DNA from: an uncultured bacterium
Lineage (GTDB): Bacteria; Patescibacteriota; Saccharimonadia; Saccharimonadales; Saccharimonadaceae
NCBI GenBank assembly: GCA_903900345.1
Contig: CAIUMO010000010.1
Span: forward strand, 1 to 53,724
Reading direction: 5' to 3'
Length of the DNA: 53,724 nt
Shown here: piece by piece, positions 32,099-37,501 of the stretch
Position numbering within the stretch: the first letter of the stretch is position 1
Layout: the number at the start of each line of letters is the position of its first letter
The notes under the pieces: generated by a model
The model's database searches: none
The model's input: the letters and a program-made list of their open reading frames with translations, nothing else
Told to the model about the DNA's origin: nothing
Program-made: the position numbers and the translations under genes

Positions 32099-32172
32099 GG
32101 TGATCTCACCGGGAATCGAACCCGGATTGCCAGGATGAGAACCTGGCGTCCTAACCGTTAGACGATGAGACC
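32098..32172 (-). tRNA. tRNA-Glu (anticodon CTC)
   Basis: 75 nt including an encoded CCA. The acceptor GGTCTCA pairs with TGAGATC, the anticodon loop TTCTCAT gives CTC, and the T-arm contains GGGTTCGATTCCC. It lies between the regulator gene and the cassette array, with its 5' end facing the array. Confidence 0.95.
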
Positions 32173-32223: not shown

Positions 32224-32262
32224 AAAAGGAAAAAGCACCCAATCATTAAGATTGCGCGCTTG
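32224..32262 (-). terminator. Terminator at the distal end of the cassette array
   Basis: On the minus strand an imperfect stem (GCGCGCAATC with GATTGGGTGC, one mismatch and one G-U) is followed by a T-run interrupted by CC, 28 nt or more after the last small gene. Confidence 0.6.
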
Positions 32263-32290
32263 TAATTAACTTGTCAGATTTTTCGCGTTA
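32256..32290 (-). repeat. Degenerate cassette arm after the last array gene
   Basis: Right after the stop, AGTAACG and AATCTGAC occur in the order found in the 3' arms of the other cassettes (GTAACG, ATCTGAT). It probably marks the end of the fifth cassette, but the match is weak. Confidence 0.35.
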
Positions 32291-32662
32291 CTATTTGCAA
32301 AGGACATTCAAAAGCCCCGTAACATTTGGGCAACGATAGTGGTTTTGGATTGTAGTGAAAAGCTCTCCAAGGTCCTTTATCGGTACTGAATATCGATTGT
32401 TTTGCCAATCATTGATCGCCCAAAACAATCTAACTTCAAACTGAGATATGAACCAGAAAAACACCATAGCGGCGATGCCGATGATAAATACCACTATAAC
32501 CGCATTCATTACCGAACCAACGGTATGTATAAACACCGTCCACAATCGCCTCAGCCATTTGCTAATTTCTTGCATCAGCTTAGTCCGCTTGATATTTATC
32601 TGATCAACCGCCTGGTCAATTGGTATAACTTGCACGATACTAATTGTTTTTGCTTTTGACAT
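32291..32662 (-). CDS. Array gene F: single-pass membrane protein, 123 aa
   Basis: Unrecognised. A charged N-terminal 40 residues (IKRTKLMQEISKWLRRLW), one long membrane helix (about 47-72, VMNAVIVVFIIGIAAMVFFW), and a C-terminal 50 residues with two Cys. It is the last gene of the five-cassette array, preceded by a structured leader (32663-32845) and AAAGGA before ATG 32662. It has no promoter of its own between its leader and gene E, so it probably depends on read-through from the promoter before E. Confidence 0.75.
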   Translation of the reverse strand: MSKAKTISIVQVIPIDQAVDQINIKRTKLMQEISKWLRRLWTVFIHTVGSVMNAVIVVFIIGIAAMVFFWFISQFEVRLFWAINDWQNNRYSVPIKDLGELFTTIQNHYRCPNVTGLLNVLCK

Positions 32663-32679
32663 TTTAGTTTTCCTTTGCC

Positions 32680-32780
32680 GTGAGGCGGTTAAGATTAGAT
32701 GCTAGCTTTTGCTAATATCTGCGCCCCACGATAGGGACAGCACGTTAACTAACCGTTTAGATTAGTAAACGCGCTGTCCC
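32680..32780 (-). promoter_or_regulatory. Structured 5' leader of array gene F
   Basis: Two hairpins on the minus strand. Distal hairpin 32734-32780: GGGACAGC with GCTGTCCC at the base and ACTAATC facing GGTTAGT near the loop. Proximal hairpin about 32680-32731 (GTGGGGCG with CGCCTCAC) lies just before the SD. The same two-hairpin order occurs before genes E, D, B and A with different base pairs. Confidence 0.75.
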
Positions 32781-32814
32781 AAAAGGAAAAAATATCAAAA
32801 TACATGTCTTAACT

Positions 32815-32891
32815 AGACATACACTATAAAATCTGACTTGTTAAAGTTCATCAGTTCGTTTCAAATCAGATCATTACAATAGTGCATGTCC
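32815..32891. repeat. Compact cassette junction E/F (inverted repeat)
   Basis: Imperfect palindrome of about 77 bp. The left arm (32815-32840, AATCTGACTTG) and right arm (32862-32891, CAAATCAGATC) are complementary around a 21-nt centre. A 43-nt stretch, 32830-32872, is identical to 34411-34453. It lies between genes E and F and contains neither promoter nor terminator. Confidence 0.85.
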
Positions 32892-32911
32892 GTAATAAAA
32901 TATCCCAGACA

Positions 32912-32947
32912 GGTTGGTACGTAGCCTTTTACAACTACGTACCAACC
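32912..32947 (-). terminator. Perfect 3' hairpin after array gene E
   Basis: GGTTGGTACGTAG pairs with CTACGTACCAACC (13 pairs, 10-nt loop) a few bases after the stop. There is no T-run, so it more likely protects the mRNA 3' end or separates cassettes than terminates by itself. Confidence 0.6.
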
Positions 32948-32951
32948 AAAA

Positions 32952-33296
32952 TTACAAACCCCTCATATCTTCTTGTGGCTCTCTTCGGAAATCTTCGTCT
33001 TCCTCTAACTCTAGAGACTCTAGATACTCCTCGATCAACTTTTTCAAGTTGTATCGATAGGCCCTCATTGCGGCCTTGCATCTGAATCTATCGCCTGGAT
33101 AGGCAACAGCAAATGCTAATTCAGCCGGCTTTTCTGGGCCTTCTTCAAAGTAGTCAGCCAATCTTCGAACGTATTCTAAGACGGCAAGCTTTCTGAATTT
33201 TATATCAGTCTGCTGGTCATACATGAATACATTCTCAAACGCTATTAACGAGAACAATCTCTTGTGTTCTACCTTTAAATCTTTATACTTTGTCAT
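32952..33296 (-). CDS. Array gene E: soluble protein, 114 aa
   Basis: Unrecognised. It is helix-rich and highly charged. The segment AVLEYVRRLADYFEEG and the acidic tail LELEEDEDFRREPQED stand out; no membrane helix. ATG 33296 (MTKYKDLK) is preceded by a G-run that may act as SD inside a weak hairpin. The nearest promoter is at 33534-33562, so E and F form one transcript. Confidence 0.72.
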   Translation of the reverse strand: MTKYKDLKVEHKRLFSLIAFENVFMYDQQTDIKFRKLAVLEYVRRLADYFEEGPEKPAELAFAVAYPGDRFRCKAAMRAYRYNLKKLIEEYLESLELEEDEDFRREPQEDMRGL

Positions 33297-33374
33297 GTTT
33301 TATTTCCCCCCGCCCCCTAGGCGATTAGTAACTTTTTATATTAGTCACCGCCATCACCCAAAAGGGGATCCGGA

Positions 33375-33415
33375 GCAACACGCAAACTAACCATTTAGAT
33401 TAGTGAGCGTGTTGC
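33375..33415 (-). promoter_or_regulatory. Distal leader hairpin of array gene E
   Basis: GCAACACGC pairs with GCGTGTTGC, with ACTAATC facing GGTTAGT near a short A/T loop. The loop-proximal part is the same as in the other leaders while the basal pairs differ. Confidence 0.75.
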
Positions 33416-33452
33416 CCCTATAGAAATAAACATTCAAAATACCTGTCCTGTT

Positions 33453-33486
33453 CGGACATGCACTGTAATGATCTGATTTGTTAACG
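33453..33486 (-). repeat. 5' arm of cassette E
   Basis: Copy of the conserved arm (plus strand GACATGCACTGTAATGATC), complementary to the arm found after gene E at 32862-32891. It lies in the 5' leader downstream of the promoter. Confidence 0.8.
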
Positions 33487-33533
33487 ATCATCTGTTATTT
33501 TAGATAAAAACACCTGAGATAACTGATGCGACT

Positions 33534-33562
33534 AGAATATAACAAAATCACCAAAGTGTCAA
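33534..33562 (-). promoter_or_regulatory. Promoter of array genes E and F
   Basis: On the minus strand a perfect TTGACA (33557-33562), a 17-nt spacer and TATTCT (33534-33539). It follows directly after the terminator of gene D. Confidence 0.75.
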
Positions 33563-33593
33563 CAGTTTTACACCTTAGACGCTTATGTTTTAA

Positions 33594-33624
33594 ACAAAAA
33601 GCTCGGTCAATCAAGACCGAGCTT
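33594..33624 (-). terminator. Terminator after array gene D
   Basis: AAGCTCGGTC pairs with GACCGAGCTT, followed by TTTGTTT on the minus strand: a classic intrinsic terminator. The 448-bp gap 33297-33744 is thus filled by leader, promoter, terminator, arm and hairpin. Confidence 0.88.
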
Positions 33625-33635
33625 CGCAGTTCGAA

Positions 33636-33665
33636 CAAATCAAATCATTACAAAATGCACGTCGA
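33636..33665 (-). repeat. 3' arm of cassette D
   Basis: Plus strand CAAATCAAATCATTACAAA then TGCACGTCGA: complementary to the 5' arm of gene D at 34395-34428 with several changes. Confidence 0.75.
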
Positions 33666-33703
33666 GTCAATTTAATGACTCACAAGGAATAAATTCCTCG
33701 GAT

Positions 33704-33736
33704 ATAACGGTACGCAATCTAGTTGCGTACCGTTAT
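33704..33736 (-). terminator. Perfect 3' hairpin after array gene D
   Basis: ATAACGGTACGCAA pairs with TTGCGTACCGTTAT (14 pairs, 5-nt loop) 8 nt after the stop. A second small hairpin, AGGAATAAATTCCT at about 33684-33697, follows and recurs after gene A. Confidence 0.65.
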
Positions 33737-33744
33737 GGGTTAGA

Positions 33745-34272
33745 TTAACTTAGAGATCTTTTTTCAAGATACACATAGAGGTAATCGTAATAGGCTTTTC
33801 GGCCTACTTCAATTACTTCATCTTCATTTTCATCCAACGTAAAGGTCTTGATTGCCGATCTCAAGGCTTCATCATCACCCTTAGGTAACGCCATCTTGAA
33901 CGCCACGACTTCAATGTCTATAACACTTTCGTTGTCGCAAAGCTGGTTGTAGACATATTCGTACTTAATCTTTAAAACGTCCAACATGACATAAAATGCT
34001 TCCATTCTATCTTCAAGACCCAGGATGCCATCAACAGCAATCAAATGGTCTCGTTTGTCACAATAAGCACGCCATGCTTTTAAATACCTTGATTCGTTAC
34101 CATCGGCAACCTTGCGGTACTCATCTCGCACCGACTCATCGATATCATAGCCGTTATCGAGTTGGTCTTTTAGACCATCTTCACTGTGTGCTAATTTACT
34201 AGTTTCCTCGGGAGTTATCAGATGAACAAGCCCTTTTCTAAATGCCCTTAACGTGATTTCACGATTTACCAT
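33745..34272 (-). CDS. Array gene D: soluble protein, 175 aa
   Basis: Unrecognised. Acidic and mostly helical; VNREITLRAFRKGLVHLI opens the protein and ends of helices contain EDRMEAFYVMLDVLKIKYEYV. Two Cys and no membrane helix. ATG 34272 is preceded by AAGGAG at 8 nt, within 20 nt of the leader hairpin. It has no promoter of its own and follows genes B and C through a compact junction. Confidence 0.78.
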   Translation of the reverse strand: MVNREITLRAFRKGLVHLITPEETSKLAHSEDGLKDQLDNGYDIDESVRDEYRKVADGNESRYLKAWRAYCDKRDHLIAVDGILGLEDRMEAFYVMLDVLKIKYEYVYNQLCDNESVIDIEVVAFKMALPKGDDEALRSAIKTFTLDENEDEVIEVGRKAYYDYLYVYLEKRSLS

Positions 34273-34287
34273 CTATATTTTCTCCTT

Positions 34288-34365
34288 CCACTCAAAGACT
34301 TCGTACTGCCTTGAGTGGGTAAGGGCAGTACGCAGACTAACCATATAGGTTAGCAAACGTACTGC
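34288..34365 (-). promoter_or_regulatory. Structured 5' leader of array gene D
   Basis: Distal hairpin 34325-34365: GCAGTACG with CGTACTGC, and CTAACC facing GGTTAG near the loop. Proximal hairpin 34288-34318: CCACTCAA with TTGAGTGG, directly before the SD. Confidence 0.78.
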
Positions 34366-34394
34366 TCTATAAGAAAAAGCGCATTGTCTTATTC

Positions 34395-34473
34395 AGACAT
34401 GCACTGTAATAATCTGACTTGTTAAAGTTCATCAGTTCGTTTCAAATCAGATCGTTACAATAGTGCATGTCTG
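34395..34473. repeat. Compact cassette junction C/D (inverted repeat)
   Basis: Near-perfect palindrome of about 79 bp. CAGACATGCACT and ATCTGACTTG on the left mirror CAAATCAGATC and AGTGCATGTCTG on the right. The left arm is the 5' arm of cassette D and the right arm the 3' arm of cassette B-C. The central 43 nt equals the E/F junction. Confidence 0.88.
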
Positions 34474-34495
34474 GTAGGTAATCGAGCGACAAGCA

Positions 34496-34529
34496 GTGTA
34501 GTTTTGAATCTTACGATTCAAAACTACAC
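34496..34529 (-). terminator. Perfect 3' hairpin after array gene C
   Basis: GTGTAGTTTTGAATC pairs with GATTCAAAACTACAC, 15 pairs and a 4-nt loop, 14 nt after the stop of gene C, without a T-run. Confidence 0.65.
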
Positions 34530-34543
34530 GCCCATCAACACGA

Positions 34544-34771
34544 CTACAACTTTTCGTTTTTGGCTGCCCAGACAACCCAAGCTACAAAGTAACCTGTTAA
34601 TGCAGCGGCTATCATAGCCCAACCAGCTTTATCTTTTACGTTATCGTCAGCCAGTTGCGCTAACGAATACATCCAGACCAAAGCTGGAGCAACAAGAAGC
34701 AGTAAGGCTCCAAAAAGTCCGCCCCACGTAAATTCATAATCCTCATCATGTCGTCTACCATACAAACTCAT
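34544..34771 (-). CDS. Array gene C: two-helix membrane protein, 75 aa
   Basis: Unrecognised. A charged, His/Asp-rich head (YGRRHDEDYEFTW), then two membrane helices (about 18-38 and 50-68) with both ends on the same side. AGGAG before the ATG. It is the second gene of the only two-gene cassette, 38 nt after gene B. Confidence 0.75.
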   Translation of the reverse strand: MSLYGRRHDEDYEFTWGGLFGALLLLVAPALVWMYSLAQLADDNVKDKAGWAMIAAALTGYFVAWVVWAAKNEKL

Positions 34772-34809
34772 AACATATTTCTCCTGTTTAAGTTTGATTA
34801 CAATCTAAT

Positions 34810-35259
34810 CTAATGTCCCGTCATTTTCCAAACAAACGAGGCAACAACCGCCAAAGTGACAACGACGACAACAGCCGTAACAATCCAGGCTTTATAATCA
34901 ACTGAATCATCTTCTTGTATCAAGGCCTCAAGCTTATCGTTATAAGCTTTCGAACCTTCACGTAAACGCTTGACTCTTCCCTGGGCAGCAATGTTCATAA
35001 CCATCGCCAAAATAGTCCTCGAATCGATATCTCTTCGGTTCTTATAATGTTCATAAACGACAGCGGCAATAACAGTCGAATCTTCAGCTATTAATTTTGC
35101 CGCCAAAATTTCATGAACAGGCCATCCTCTATACATCGAGTCTTTTATGACCTTCAGACCGCGACTAGACCGATCTTTGTTCGGCGCTGCAACTTCGAGA
35201 CCTTCGTTTATGGCAATTGCTTTATAGTTGTCCTCTTTGGATTTTCTTAACTTAAACAT
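34810..35259 (-). CDS. Array gene B: tail-anchored protein, 149 aa
   Basis: Unrecognised. Residues 1-122 are basic/helical and soluble (RGWPVHEILAAKLIAED, IAAVVYEHYKNRRDID). A single membrane helix at about 125-146 (AWIVTAVVVVVTLAVVASFV) leaves only a few residues at the C-terminus, so the bulk would face the cytosol. A very strong SD AAGGAGG follows a perfect 12-pair leader hairpin. It has its own promoter. Confidence 0.8.
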   Translation of the reverse strand: MFKLRKSKEDNYKAIAINEGLEVAAPNKDRSSRGLKVIKDSMYRGWPVHEILAAKLIAEDSTVIAAVVYEHYKNRRDIDSRTILAMVMNIAAQGRVKRLREGSKAYNDKLEALIQEDDSVDYKAWIVTAVVVVVTLAVVASFVWKMTGH

Positions 35260-35274
35260 TTTTTCCTCCTTCTG

Positions 35275-35365
35275 CCCACAAGGGCGTTAATATTGCTACT
35301 AACATCGCCCTTGTGGGATGAGAGTAGTACGTAAAACTAACCGTATAGATTAGCAAACGTACTAC
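35275..35365 (-). promoter_or_regulatory. Structured 5' leader of array gene B
   Basis: Distal hairpin 35324-35365: TAGTACGT with ACGTACTA, and CTAATC facing GGTTAG. Proximal hairpin 35275-35317: CCCACAAGGGCG with CGCCCTTGTGGG, 12 perfect pairs, 4 nt before the SD AAGGAGG. Confidence 0.8.
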
Positions 35366-35398
35366 CCTCAAAAGGAGAGAGAAATACATAGTCCTACT

Positions 35399-35432
35399 CG
35401 GACATGCACTGTAATGATCTGATTTGTTAACG
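35399..35432 (-). repeat. 5' arm of cassette B-C
   Basis: Same arm sequence as at 33453-33486 (34 of 34 bases by eye). Its complement follows gene C at 34443-34473. Confidence 0.82.
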
Positions 35433-35479
35433 ATCATCTGTTATTACGGGATATTGCACCCGACAAAACTGATGCGATT

Positions 35480-35508
35480 AGGATAGCATAAAAAGCGCAA
35501 AACGTCAA
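35480..35508 (-). promoter_or_regulatory. Promoter of array genes B, C and D
   Basis: On the minus strand TTGACG (35503-35508), a 17-nt spacer and TATCCT (35480-35485), directly after the terminator of gene A. Confidence 0.7.
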
Positions 35509-35529
35509 TGTCTGACCCCATATCGACAA

Positions 35530-35560
35530 CAAAAAACACTCGGCCATTTAGACCGAGTGT
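35530..35560 (-). terminator. Terminator after array gene A
   Basis: ACACTCGG pairs with CCGAGTGT around a 9-nt loop, followed by TTTTTTG on the minus strand. Confidence 0.85.
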
Positions 35561-35581
35561 CAGCAAGTTTCTATAATTACA

Positions 35582-35623
35582 CAAATCAGATCGTTACAAA
35601 AGTTAATACTAAGCGCATGTCGA
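35582..35623 (-). repeat. 3' arm of cassette A
   Basis: Plus strand CAAATCAGATCGTTACAA then, after an insertion of about 12 nt, GCGCATGTCGA. Complementary to the 5' arm at 36180-36213. The gap 35260-35764 holds, in this order, the leader and promoter of B, the terminator, this arm and the hairpin of A. Confidence 0.75.
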
Positions 35624-35698
35624 GTCGATAATGACTCACAAGGAATAAATTCCTTGGATTGACACATGCGTATTTTTTTATAGGCGGTTCCTAGGAAC

Positions 35699-35733
35699 CA
35701 GGTACGCATCCCTCGCAGAAAGATGCGTACCTG
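35699..35733 (-). terminator. Perfect 3' hairpin after array gene A
   Basis: CAGGTACGCATC pairs with GATGCGTACCTG (12 pairs). It is adjoined by the palindrome GGTTCCTAGGAACC at 35687-35700 and, further on, by AGGAATAAATTCCT at about 35641-35654. Confidence 0.6.
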
Positions 35734-35764
35734 TAGATGGCTTAAATTGTTTACAAATCTATTC

Positions 35765-36022
35765 CTAGATTTGTTCAAATATAAACAATAGTTTATTTCG
35801 AACAATTTTTATCACCGACGTCAGTTTATCTCTGCCGCATTGATAGGCAGACCTGATGCTGGCATTCATAGCCAAATCAAGCTTTTTGACGTCGTCTCCA
35901 TGCATAGAGGCATAGTTGTCAAACGTAGTTAGTCCACGTTTGGCGTCTTTCGCAGAAAGATTTAAATCCTCTGCGTAGGTTGCAACTAGCGCTCTTCGGT
36001 AGCATTTTACTGTTGTTTTCAT
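35765..36022 (-). CDS. Array gene A: small soluble protein, 85 aa
   Basis: Unrecognised. Basic and helical (KCYRRALVATYAEDLNL, then AKRGLTTFDNYASMHGDD). The frame is open to 36052, but ATG 36022 (MKTTVKCYRR) has GGAG at 8 nt and the longer version would begin inside the leader hairpin. It is the first gene of the array with its own strong promoter, and it ends in a terminator. Confidence 0.75.
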   Translation of the reverse strand: MKTTVKCYRRALVATYAEDLNLSAKDAKRGLTTFDNYASMHGDDVKKLDLAMNASIRSAYQCGRDKLTSVIKIVRNKLLFIFEQI

Positions 36023-36041
36023 TTTTATTTCTCCTATGGCT

Positions 36042-36128
36042 CTTGGGGCCATTTATTTTTTATAATAACTGGGCCCCCAAGATTCTCGGCGCAGCAGCCA
36101 ACTAACCAACTTGATTAGTAAACTGCTG
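36042..36128 (-). promoter_or_regulatory. Structured 5' leader of array gene A
   Basis: Distal hairpin 36092-36128: CAGCAG with CTGCTG, and ACTAATC facing GGTTAGT. Proximal hairpin 36042-36081: CTTGGGGGCC with GGCCCCAAG, just before the SD. The gap 36023-36385 contains this leader, the arm, the promoter and about 95 bp before cfa in which I see nothing certain. Confidence 0.78.
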
Positions 36129-36179
36129 TACCCAGCAAAGGAGAAATATATCCTATACAAAATACGCAATGTCTTATTC

Positions 36180-36213
36180 AGACATGCACTGTAATGATCT
36201 GACTTGTTAATGG
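36180..36213 (-). repeat. 5' arm of cassette A
   Basis: Plus strand CAGACATGCACTGTAATGAT then CTGACTTGTTAATG; complementary to the arm after gene A. Adjacent TGTCTTATTCAGACA can form a competing local hairpin that uses the same GACATG. Confidence 0.82.
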
Positions 36214-36260
36214 TCATCTGTTATCTCGGGTCTTTACACCTTGGATAACTGATTGACTAT

Positions 36261-36289
36261 ATATTAGCATAAGGATGTTAAATTGTCAA
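36261..36289 (-). promoter_or_regulatory. Promoter of array gene A
   Basis: On the minus strand TTGACA (36284-36289), 17-nt spacer, TAATAT (36261-36266): near-consensus. Confidence 0.78.
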
Positions 36290-36385
36290 TATTATATCGA
36301 TGTAATCTAGCTACGCCGTAAGTGGTGGCAGGTCTACTATTACCGCCATCGCTGGTGTACTATTAATACAGATACAAGGGGAGTT

Positions 36386-37501
36386 ATGAAGACCGACAAG
36401 CAAATCGCACAATCACTACTTGAAAGCGCTGGCATCACAATTAACGGCGCTAACGATTACGATATCCAGATACATAACGACGAGCTTTACAGTCGAGTCC
36501 TTCACCAAGGAGCGCTGGGTTTAGGCGAAGCCTACATGGACGGCTGGTGGGATGTACCAAAGCTCGACCTATTCTTTGAAAAGATAATCAACGCCAACTT
36601 GGACCAAAAGGTAAAAGGTGATTGGAGCATATTACTAAGCGGCGCTTTCAGTATCGTCATGAACGCCGGCCGCAAATCCAAGGCCTTTCAAGTCGGTCAA
36701 CAACACTATGACATCGGCAACGACCTATATCGCGCTATGCTCGACAAACGCCTGGTTTACACCTGCGGCTATTGGCAAAATGCCAAAAACCTGAACCAAG
36801 CCCAAGATGCCAAATTAGACCTGATTTGCCGCAAGATTGGACTGCAAAAAGGCCAAAAAGTATTAGATATCGGCTCGGGCTGGGGCAGCTTTATCAAATT
36901 TGCAGCCGAAAATTACGGCGCCGAAACACTAGGCGTTACGGTATCAGCCAATCAAAAGGAACTAGCTGATAAACTATGCCACGGCCTGCCAGCACAGACA
37001 ATCCTGGAAGATTACCGTGACATCAATCAACAATTCGATCATGTCGTTTCAGTTGGTATGTTCGAGCACGTCGGCTACAAAAATTATCGAACCTACATGA
37101 AAGTTGTGCATCGAGCATTATCGGACGATGGGCTATTTTTGCTACACACAATCGGCGGTAATAATTCAACACATGACACCGACCCTTGGCTAGGAAAATA
37201 TATATTCCCAAACAGCATGATTCCGTCAATGCAACAAATCAGCAAATCCGTCGAAAACCTGTTCGTCATAGAAGATTGGCACAATTTTGGACCAGATTAT
37301 GACCGAACTTTAATGCAATGGCATAAAAACTTCGAGAGAAACTGGGACAAATTAAAGTCCAACTACGACGAAAGGTTCCACCGCATGTGGCGCTATTATC
37401 TACTACAAAGCGCCGCTGGCTTCCGCACCCGCAAACTCCAATTATGGCAAATCGTCCTATCCAAAAACGGCGTCCCTGGCGGCTACAAATCAGTTAGATA
37501 G
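36386..37501 (+). CDS. cfa: Cyclopropane-fatty-acyl-phospholipid synthase family methyltransferase
   Basis: 371 aa SAM-dependent enzyme that methylenates double bonds of membrane acyl chains. Conserved: EAYMDGWWDVPKLD, QHYDIGNDLYRAMLDKRLVYTCGYW (seen as QHYDIGNDLY and YTCGYW), SAM site VLDIGSGWGSF, SVGMFEHVG and a C-terminal FRTRKLQLWQIVLSK. GGGGAG lies 2 nt before the ATG. CPR bacteria usually make few lipids themselves, so this would modify acquired lipids; that is inference. Confidence 0.95.
   Translation: MKTDKQIAQSLLESAGITINGANDYDIQIHNDELYSRVLHQGALGLGEAYMDGWWDVPKLDLFFEKIINANLDQKVKGDWSILLSGAFSIVMNAGRKSKAFQVGQQHYDIGNDLYRAMLDKRLVYTCGYWQNAKNLNQAQDAKLDLICRKIGLQKGQKVLDIGSGWGSFIKFAAENYGAETLGVTVSANQKELADKLCHGLPAQTILEDYRDINQQFDHVVSVGMFEHVGYKNYRTYMKVVHRALSDDGLFLLHTIGGNNSTHDTDPWLGKYIFPNSMIPSMQQISKSVENLFVIEDWHNFGPDYDRTLMQWHKNFERNWDKLKSNYDERFHRMWRYYLLQSAAGFRTRKLQLWQIVLSKNGVPGGYKSVR

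Follow-up and report, generated by a model that had tools for sequence, protein, structure and literature searches.

What are the complementary arms that bound each small gene of a tandem array in this genome, and do they act at the level of RNA or of DNA? The window (the whole stretch of 53,724 nucleotides that was analysed) carries on its minus strand, between tRNA-Glu (32101-32172) and a gene at 36386-37501 that we take, from its sequence, to be cyclopropane-fatty-acid-synthase-like (cfa-like), six ORFs, A to F (85, 149, 75, 175, 114 and 123 aa), which lie in five units:

36261-36289, minus: promoter of unit 1 (TTGACA-17-TAATAT), best-scoring site of the promoter scan
36220-36250, minus: leader hairpin P1 (GTTATC...GATAAC), from sequence; 5 of 7 pairs changed on both sides
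36204-36213, minus: boxA-like CCATTAACAA of unit 1, rRNA boxA matrix
36181-36206, minus: 5' arm of unit 1, arm pattern and pairing alignment
35765-36022, minus: ORF A, 85 aa, ORF list
35582-35621, minus: 3' arm of unit 1, with a long bulge, pairing alignment
35535-35561, minus: terminator after unit 1, terminator scan
35480-35508, minus: promoter of units 2-3, promoter scan
35424-35433, minus: boxA-like TCGTTAACAA of unit 2, rRNA boxA matrix
35401-35426, minus: 5' arm of unit 2, arm pattern and pairing alignment
34810-35259, minus: ORF B, 149 aa, C-terminal transmembrane segment (TM), ORF list
34544-34771, minus: ORF C, 75 aa, two TM, ORF list
34443-34471, minus: 3' arm of unit 2, arm pattern and pairing alignment
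34419-34428, minus: boxA-like ACTTTAACAA of unit 3, compact joint, rRNA boxA matrix (rank 1 in unit)
34396-34421, minus: 5' arm of unit 3, arm pattern and pairing alignment
33745-34272, minus: ORF D, 175 aa, ORF list
33636-33663, minus: 3' arm of unit 3, pairing alignment
33598-33625, minus: terminator after unit 3, terminator scan
33534-33562, minus: promoter of units 4-5, promoter scan
33478-33487, minus: boxA-like TCGTTAACAA of unit 4, rRNA boxA matrix
33455-33480, minus: 5' arm of unit 4, arm pattern and pairing alignment
32952-33296, minus: ORF E, 114 aa, ORF list
32862-32890, minus: 3' arm of unit 4, arm pattern and pairing alignment
32838-32847, minus: boxA-like ACTTTAACAA of unit 5, compact joint, read directly from the sequence
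32816-32840, minus: 5' arm of unit 5, with a 1-nt deletion, sequence and arm alignment
32291-32662, minus: ORF F, 123 aa, TM, ORF list
32266-32282, minus: degenerate 3' arm of unit 5, 88% complementary over 17 nt
32231-32260, minus: terminator-like hairpin and T run at the array end, from sequence; absent from the terminator scan list
32101-32172, minus: tRNA-Glu(CTC) next to the array, orientation opposite to that in most relatives, Rfam match and locus comparison

The initial annotation had described five minus-strand cassettes, and all five 5' arms and four good 3' arms were found where it placed them; the fifth 3' arm is indeed degenerate (32282-32266). Its arm pattern has six exact matches in the window versus 0.00 expected in shuffles. 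Both kinds of joint that it distinguished were borne out, with two examples each. In the compact joints, the 3' arm is followed after ∼ 21 nt by the next 5' arm, whereas the remaining two contain a terminator (35561-35535 and 33625-33598) and a new promoter (35508-35480 and 33562-33534), so that the array is predicted to form three transcription units, [1], [2-3] and [4-5]. Strong hairpins precede each 3' arm, and a hairpin lies near the ribosome-binding site ahead of the window genes.

The arms are not confined to this array. Searching at the DNA level placed further copies of the leader on three other contigs of this genome. Three units lie between genes read as those for triosephosphate isomerase and pyruvate kinase, a fourth lies next to a different tRNA-Glu and a serine-recombinase-like ORF, and a fifth is near a tRNA gene; with the one unit that a covariance model contributed on contig 4, the genome has 11 units in all. 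Matches were also present in 23 of the 27 other genomes of the genus and in 2 of 8 genomes from other genera of the family. The recurrence of the arms around unrelated small genes at other loci, which the initial annotation had proposed as a check, is thus established. In the order as a whole, the covariance model matched 76 of 393 genomes, mostly from this family and a second one (f31), with the proviso that matches near E 0.01 may be due to chance. Arm pairing in the second family spans 2.5-2.9 kb, with scores of 41-49 versus shuffled maxima of 28-31. In a phylum-wide sample of 380 genomes, matches at E 0.001 were found inside the family alone. An exact-pattern scan of a collection of 84,980 species returned 29 stretches, of which those with informative titles all came from Saccharibacteria or Patescibacteria. 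Among these stretches is one from the complete genome of the isolate TM7i (CP075337.1), which has one unit. Among the curated Rfam models, only tRNA reached the threshold in the window.

To examine the pairing of the arms, we aligned 48 units with both arms, matching each 5' arm by position to its own 3' arm, which lies 0.4-2.5 kb away. Of the 1248 cells in this alignment, 1159 are Watson-Crick pairs and 54 are G-U, against 15 A-C. Inverted repeats acting as DNA would lack such a bias, and the arms therefore appear to pair as sense RNA. Both sides change together: column A10 is C-G in 25 units and T-A in 19, and column A7 is G-C in 36 and A-T in 7. Among the 39 distinct rows, 96.9% of the cells are paired, compared with 25-38% in slid controls, and 13 of the 26 pairs are changed on both sides, which was equalled in 0 of 500 shuffles. 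Because such shuffles leave relatedness in, and related sequences inflate the result, we also exchanged the 3' arms between units. This lowered the number of paired cells from 1213 to 1156 +/- 3.9 (0 of 5000 exchanges reached the observed value), and exchange within loci only lowered it from 554 to 531 +/- 4 (0 of 5000). The unusual 5' arm of one unit (L073:9800), ATTTCG/ACGC, finds its match in that unit's own 3' arm ∼ 450 nt further on and not in the ordinary 3' arm adjoining it. A panhandle RNA enclosing each gene, one of the two options offered by the initial annotation, is therefore nearly certain, judging from these compensatory changes. A hairpin between a 3' arm and the 5' arm of the next unit was rejected as the main pairing, since within arrays the two arms of a unit on the whole pair better with each other than with those of its neighbours, although some adjacent-arm pairs of the window equal the own-unit pairs.

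The other option was that the arms are terminal inverted repeats of mobile DNA cassettes, or folded recombination sites, with arrays growing by capture. Arrays of unrelated orphan genes behind one wrapper would fit this, as does the history of the locus. Genes for a histidine kinase and a response regulator lie together with tRNA-Glu in most of the genus; in two relatives (G022 and G018) tRNA-Glu is followed directly by the fatty-acid-synthase-like gene, without an array, whereas this genome and G016 have cassettes and an inverted tRNA, the G016 cassette lying in the other orientation beside the tRNA. Given this presence and absence between relatives, the arrays appear to come and go, in a setting where the flanks have also been rearranged. 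Nevertheless, mobility of this kind leaves the strand-asymmetric wobble and the unit-specific covariation unaccounted for, and the arms enclose neither the promoter nor the first hairpin. Among the units compared, no cassette gene was common to different genomes or found at two places; the arm pattern had 0 matches in viral contigs, and throughout the order single units have stayed next to the same surface gene. We therefore regard it as highly improbable.

Gene content is far less constant than the arms. Across the order, single units carry one or two membrane or proline-rich proteins and are followed by a surface-protein-like gene, whose product has a hydrophobic signal at its N-terminus and, in the cases examined, ends in an LPxTG-like sequence. 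Fourteen of the core proteins encoded by the single units cluster by BLASTP, the remaining ORFs of the units are singletons with the exception of a few close pairs, and ORF D has no homologue in the 27 other genomes of the genus. Thus, the wrapper is conserved and its small-gene content is not. The core unit adjoins a surface-protein gene, and the arrays appear to be genus-level expansions with orphan genes. A paired trailer for the downstream surface gene was considered and rejected, its best complements lying in conserved coding sequence. The six window ORFs, unrecognised in the initial annotation, remained so: none scored above the Pfam cut-off, PHROGs gave nothing convincing and PADLOC nothing. 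AlphaFold models of ORFs D and E, made without relatives, were unusable (mean pLDDT 38 and 51).

Two elements at the start of the units had escaped the initial annotation, the hairpin P1 and a boxA-like motif. In stand-alone units the promoter lies just 5' of P1, which in turn lies upstream of the 5' arm; P1 covaries, with changes on both sides at 5 of its 7 pairs, and is absent in compact joints. Nearly every 5' arm begins within a boxA-like TTAACAA, and the T, T, A and A between P1 and the helix are invariant in 33 leaders even though they lie outside the helix. We scored each unit with a weight matrix derived from 12 rRNA boxA sites of the genus, selected by hand. In 43 of 51 units the arm start was among the three best of ∼ 500-2700 windows; boxA is poor in a few divergent units (ranks 22 and 68). 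Most core units have a further boxA-like site after the 3' arm. The motif at the arm start is thus likely to be a boxA. It overlaps the 5' arm by three bases, and Nus binding and closure of the helix might therefore compete. One could also read the 5' arm as coding (MTINKSDHYSAC...), the arms acting through translation of a leader peptide as in an attenuator, and an ATG followed by an open arm is indeed seen in units 1 and 2 of the window. Most other units, however, have no ATG there, several arms have indels or stops, and the 5' arm varies in step with its pairing partner in the 3' arm, which leaves this reading with almost negligible probability.

The same order of elements is seen at the 16S rRNA genes of the genus, examined in five related genomes since this assembly has no 16S: a promoter and a hairpin come first, then a boxA that runs into the leader arm, the gene itself, the trailer arm and a terminator-like element. 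The 16S leader of the genus has a hairpin CAACGTGGAGTTG, then AACAGATG, the boxA CTTTAACAATTTGG and the pairing arm. Leader-trailer pairing scored 60-67 in four of the five genomes, compared with shuffled maxima of 28-36; in the fifth, there was no strong partner within the 310 nt examined. The 23S leader and trailer, which have a similar layout, were rejected as the source of the arms, since most of their pairing scores lie close to the shuffled maxima. The rRNA leaders gave no significant match when searched with a profile of the cassette leaders (best E 0.38). What connects the two is therefore their layout and a short motif, and the similarity may be analogy rather than shared ancestry. 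Genes for NusB and RNase III (nusB and rnc) are both present, at most ∼ 0.8 kb apart, in all four genomes tested, from two families. The cassettes accordingly combine the putative boxA, hairpin and leader-trailer pairing of an rrn-type module, in a genome that encodes NusB and RNase III, with protein genes in place of rRNA. The initial annotation had called the layout undescribed; it is that of the bacterial pre-16S leader and trailer with boxA, and what does stand out as unusual is the protein gene inside.

These observations suggest that an rRNA transcription and processing route has been borrowed for mRNAs. We consider it probable, at roughly two chances in three, that the cassettes are mRNAs with an rRNA-type boxA and a leader-trailer helix, probably using NusB/S10 and RNase III. 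The transcript would be built like pre-16S rRNA: promoter, short hairpin, boxA, 5' arm, gene, hairpins, 3' arm and terminator. NusB/S10 and other Nus factors would bind boxA on the nascent RNA, and the Nus complex would keep the 5' arm close to RNA polymerase as transcription proceeds through the gene and loops it out. The emerging 3' arm would then pair with the held 5' arm into a ∼ 26-bp helix around the message, which RNase III would probably cut, separating cassettes that share a transcript and leaving their ends defined and protected. For E. coli it has been proposed that boxA, anchored to NusB, keeps the leader strand at the polymerase up to the emergence of the trailer; 30S formation there requires the leader-trailer helix (PMC10250234). 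In the cassettes, tethering by Nus factors and release by RNase III are plausible; Nus binding, antitermination, cutting and mRNA protection are what we infer from the design.

A simpler proposal dispenses with Nus factors and takes TTAACAA as a mere conserved lip of the helix, the arms and 3' hairpins shielding the message or restraining its translation. It builds on arm pairing, the best-supported fact, and on the hairpins before the 3' arms and near the ribosome-binding sites of the window genes, and treats Nus binding at the boxA-like motif as the prediction that it is. It does not explain, however, why the TTAA just outside the helix is invariant in 33 leaders, why the motif matches the rRNA boxA of the genus and recurs after the 3' arm, or why the layout matches that of 16S rRNA, and we consider it unlikely.

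If the rRNA-type reading is extended, the order would express selected protein genes by the rRNA route, as boxA-tethered, looped-out, RNase III-released panhandle messages, and one genus would reuse the wrapper as expression slots for orphan genes; we put this forward tentatively, at somewhat less than even odds. A family of protein genes across the order shows an rRNA-type design, with covariation strong enough to call. Two questions thereby become testable: can the rRNA transcription complex serve mRNAs, and does enclosure in a helix protect an ORF or silence it? The unit of TM7i (CP075337.1) brings such questions within reach of the laboratory. Saccharibacteria are tiny parasitic bacteria, and the design raises the question of why ultra-small parasites use the wrapper for surface proteins and orphan genes.

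Nus/boxA and leader-trailer helices are considered part of the rRNA machinery, and rRNA is where this class is known; in the literature searched, its use on a family of mRNAs is without description. Like integron gene cassettes, the units are small orphan genes arranged head to tail and separated by imperfect palindromes; unlike in integrons, the promoters lie beyond the arms, and pairing joins the two arms of a unit instead of the sequences at a joint. The mRNAs of icaR in Staphylococcus aureus and hbs in Bacillus subtilis likewise pair their leader with the 3' UTR, but these are single genes, with no known wrapper common to unrelated genes. The first cellular mRNA target of Nus/boxA was reported in 2017: boxA occurs in the 5' UTR of protein genes, namely suhB of E. 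coli, which Nus factors repress, and a toxin gene of Citrobacter koseri; the cassettes share this feature and add a paired 3' arm, none being described in the portions of that report drawn on here (PMC5725501). The closest counterpart is pre-16S rRNA with its rrn boxB-boxA-boxC leader, which the cassettes match in the promoter-hairpin-boxA-leader arm-gene-trailer arm order, the long helix around the gene, the second boxA downstream and a leader-strand sequence that is conserved (cf. boxC) yet covarying (PMC10250234). They differ from it in enclosing protein ORFs with ribosome-binding sites, and so are not an rrn operon, in having arms distinct in sequence from the 16S arms of the same genus, and in forming arrays of several units.

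The genes for NusB and RNase III, the factors proposed for boxA binding and helix cutting of the units, adjoin each other in four Saccharimonadales genomes. Units 1 and 2 have overlapping short ORFs that start immediately ahead of the 5' arm, and many units carry a second conserved leader hairpin (sequence type GTACGTTTGCTAATC-TATAC-GGTTAG...ACGTAC), placed 3' of this arm and before the ribosome-binding site.

G000:C29:20936-22534; G353:C1:274719-276324, nusB and rnc pair
window:36053-36217, short ORF, 54 aa, unit 1
window:35252-35437, short ORF, 61 aa, unit 2
window:35331-35374, further leader hairpin, with equivalents in other units

The tRNA-Glu(CTC) gene that follows the histidine kinase and response regulator pair is inverted in the source genome, G016 and G012, and lies in forward orientation in 18 further relatives in which it was found. 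Several relatives have repeat-like stretches close to tRNA-Glu (motifs GAATCCGG... and CGACCCCGCCTC...). Serine-recombinase-like C-terminal sequences adjoin tRNA-Glu genes on contig 19 of the source genome and in G007, which suggests that tRNA-Glu serves as an integration site.

window:32101-32172; loci L119, L125, L142, orientation of tRNA-Glu(CTC)
L125:3500-3980; L130:3790-4000; L142:3410-3600, repeat-like sequences
L010:6000-6600; L121:4171-4566, serine-recombinase-like C-terminal sequences
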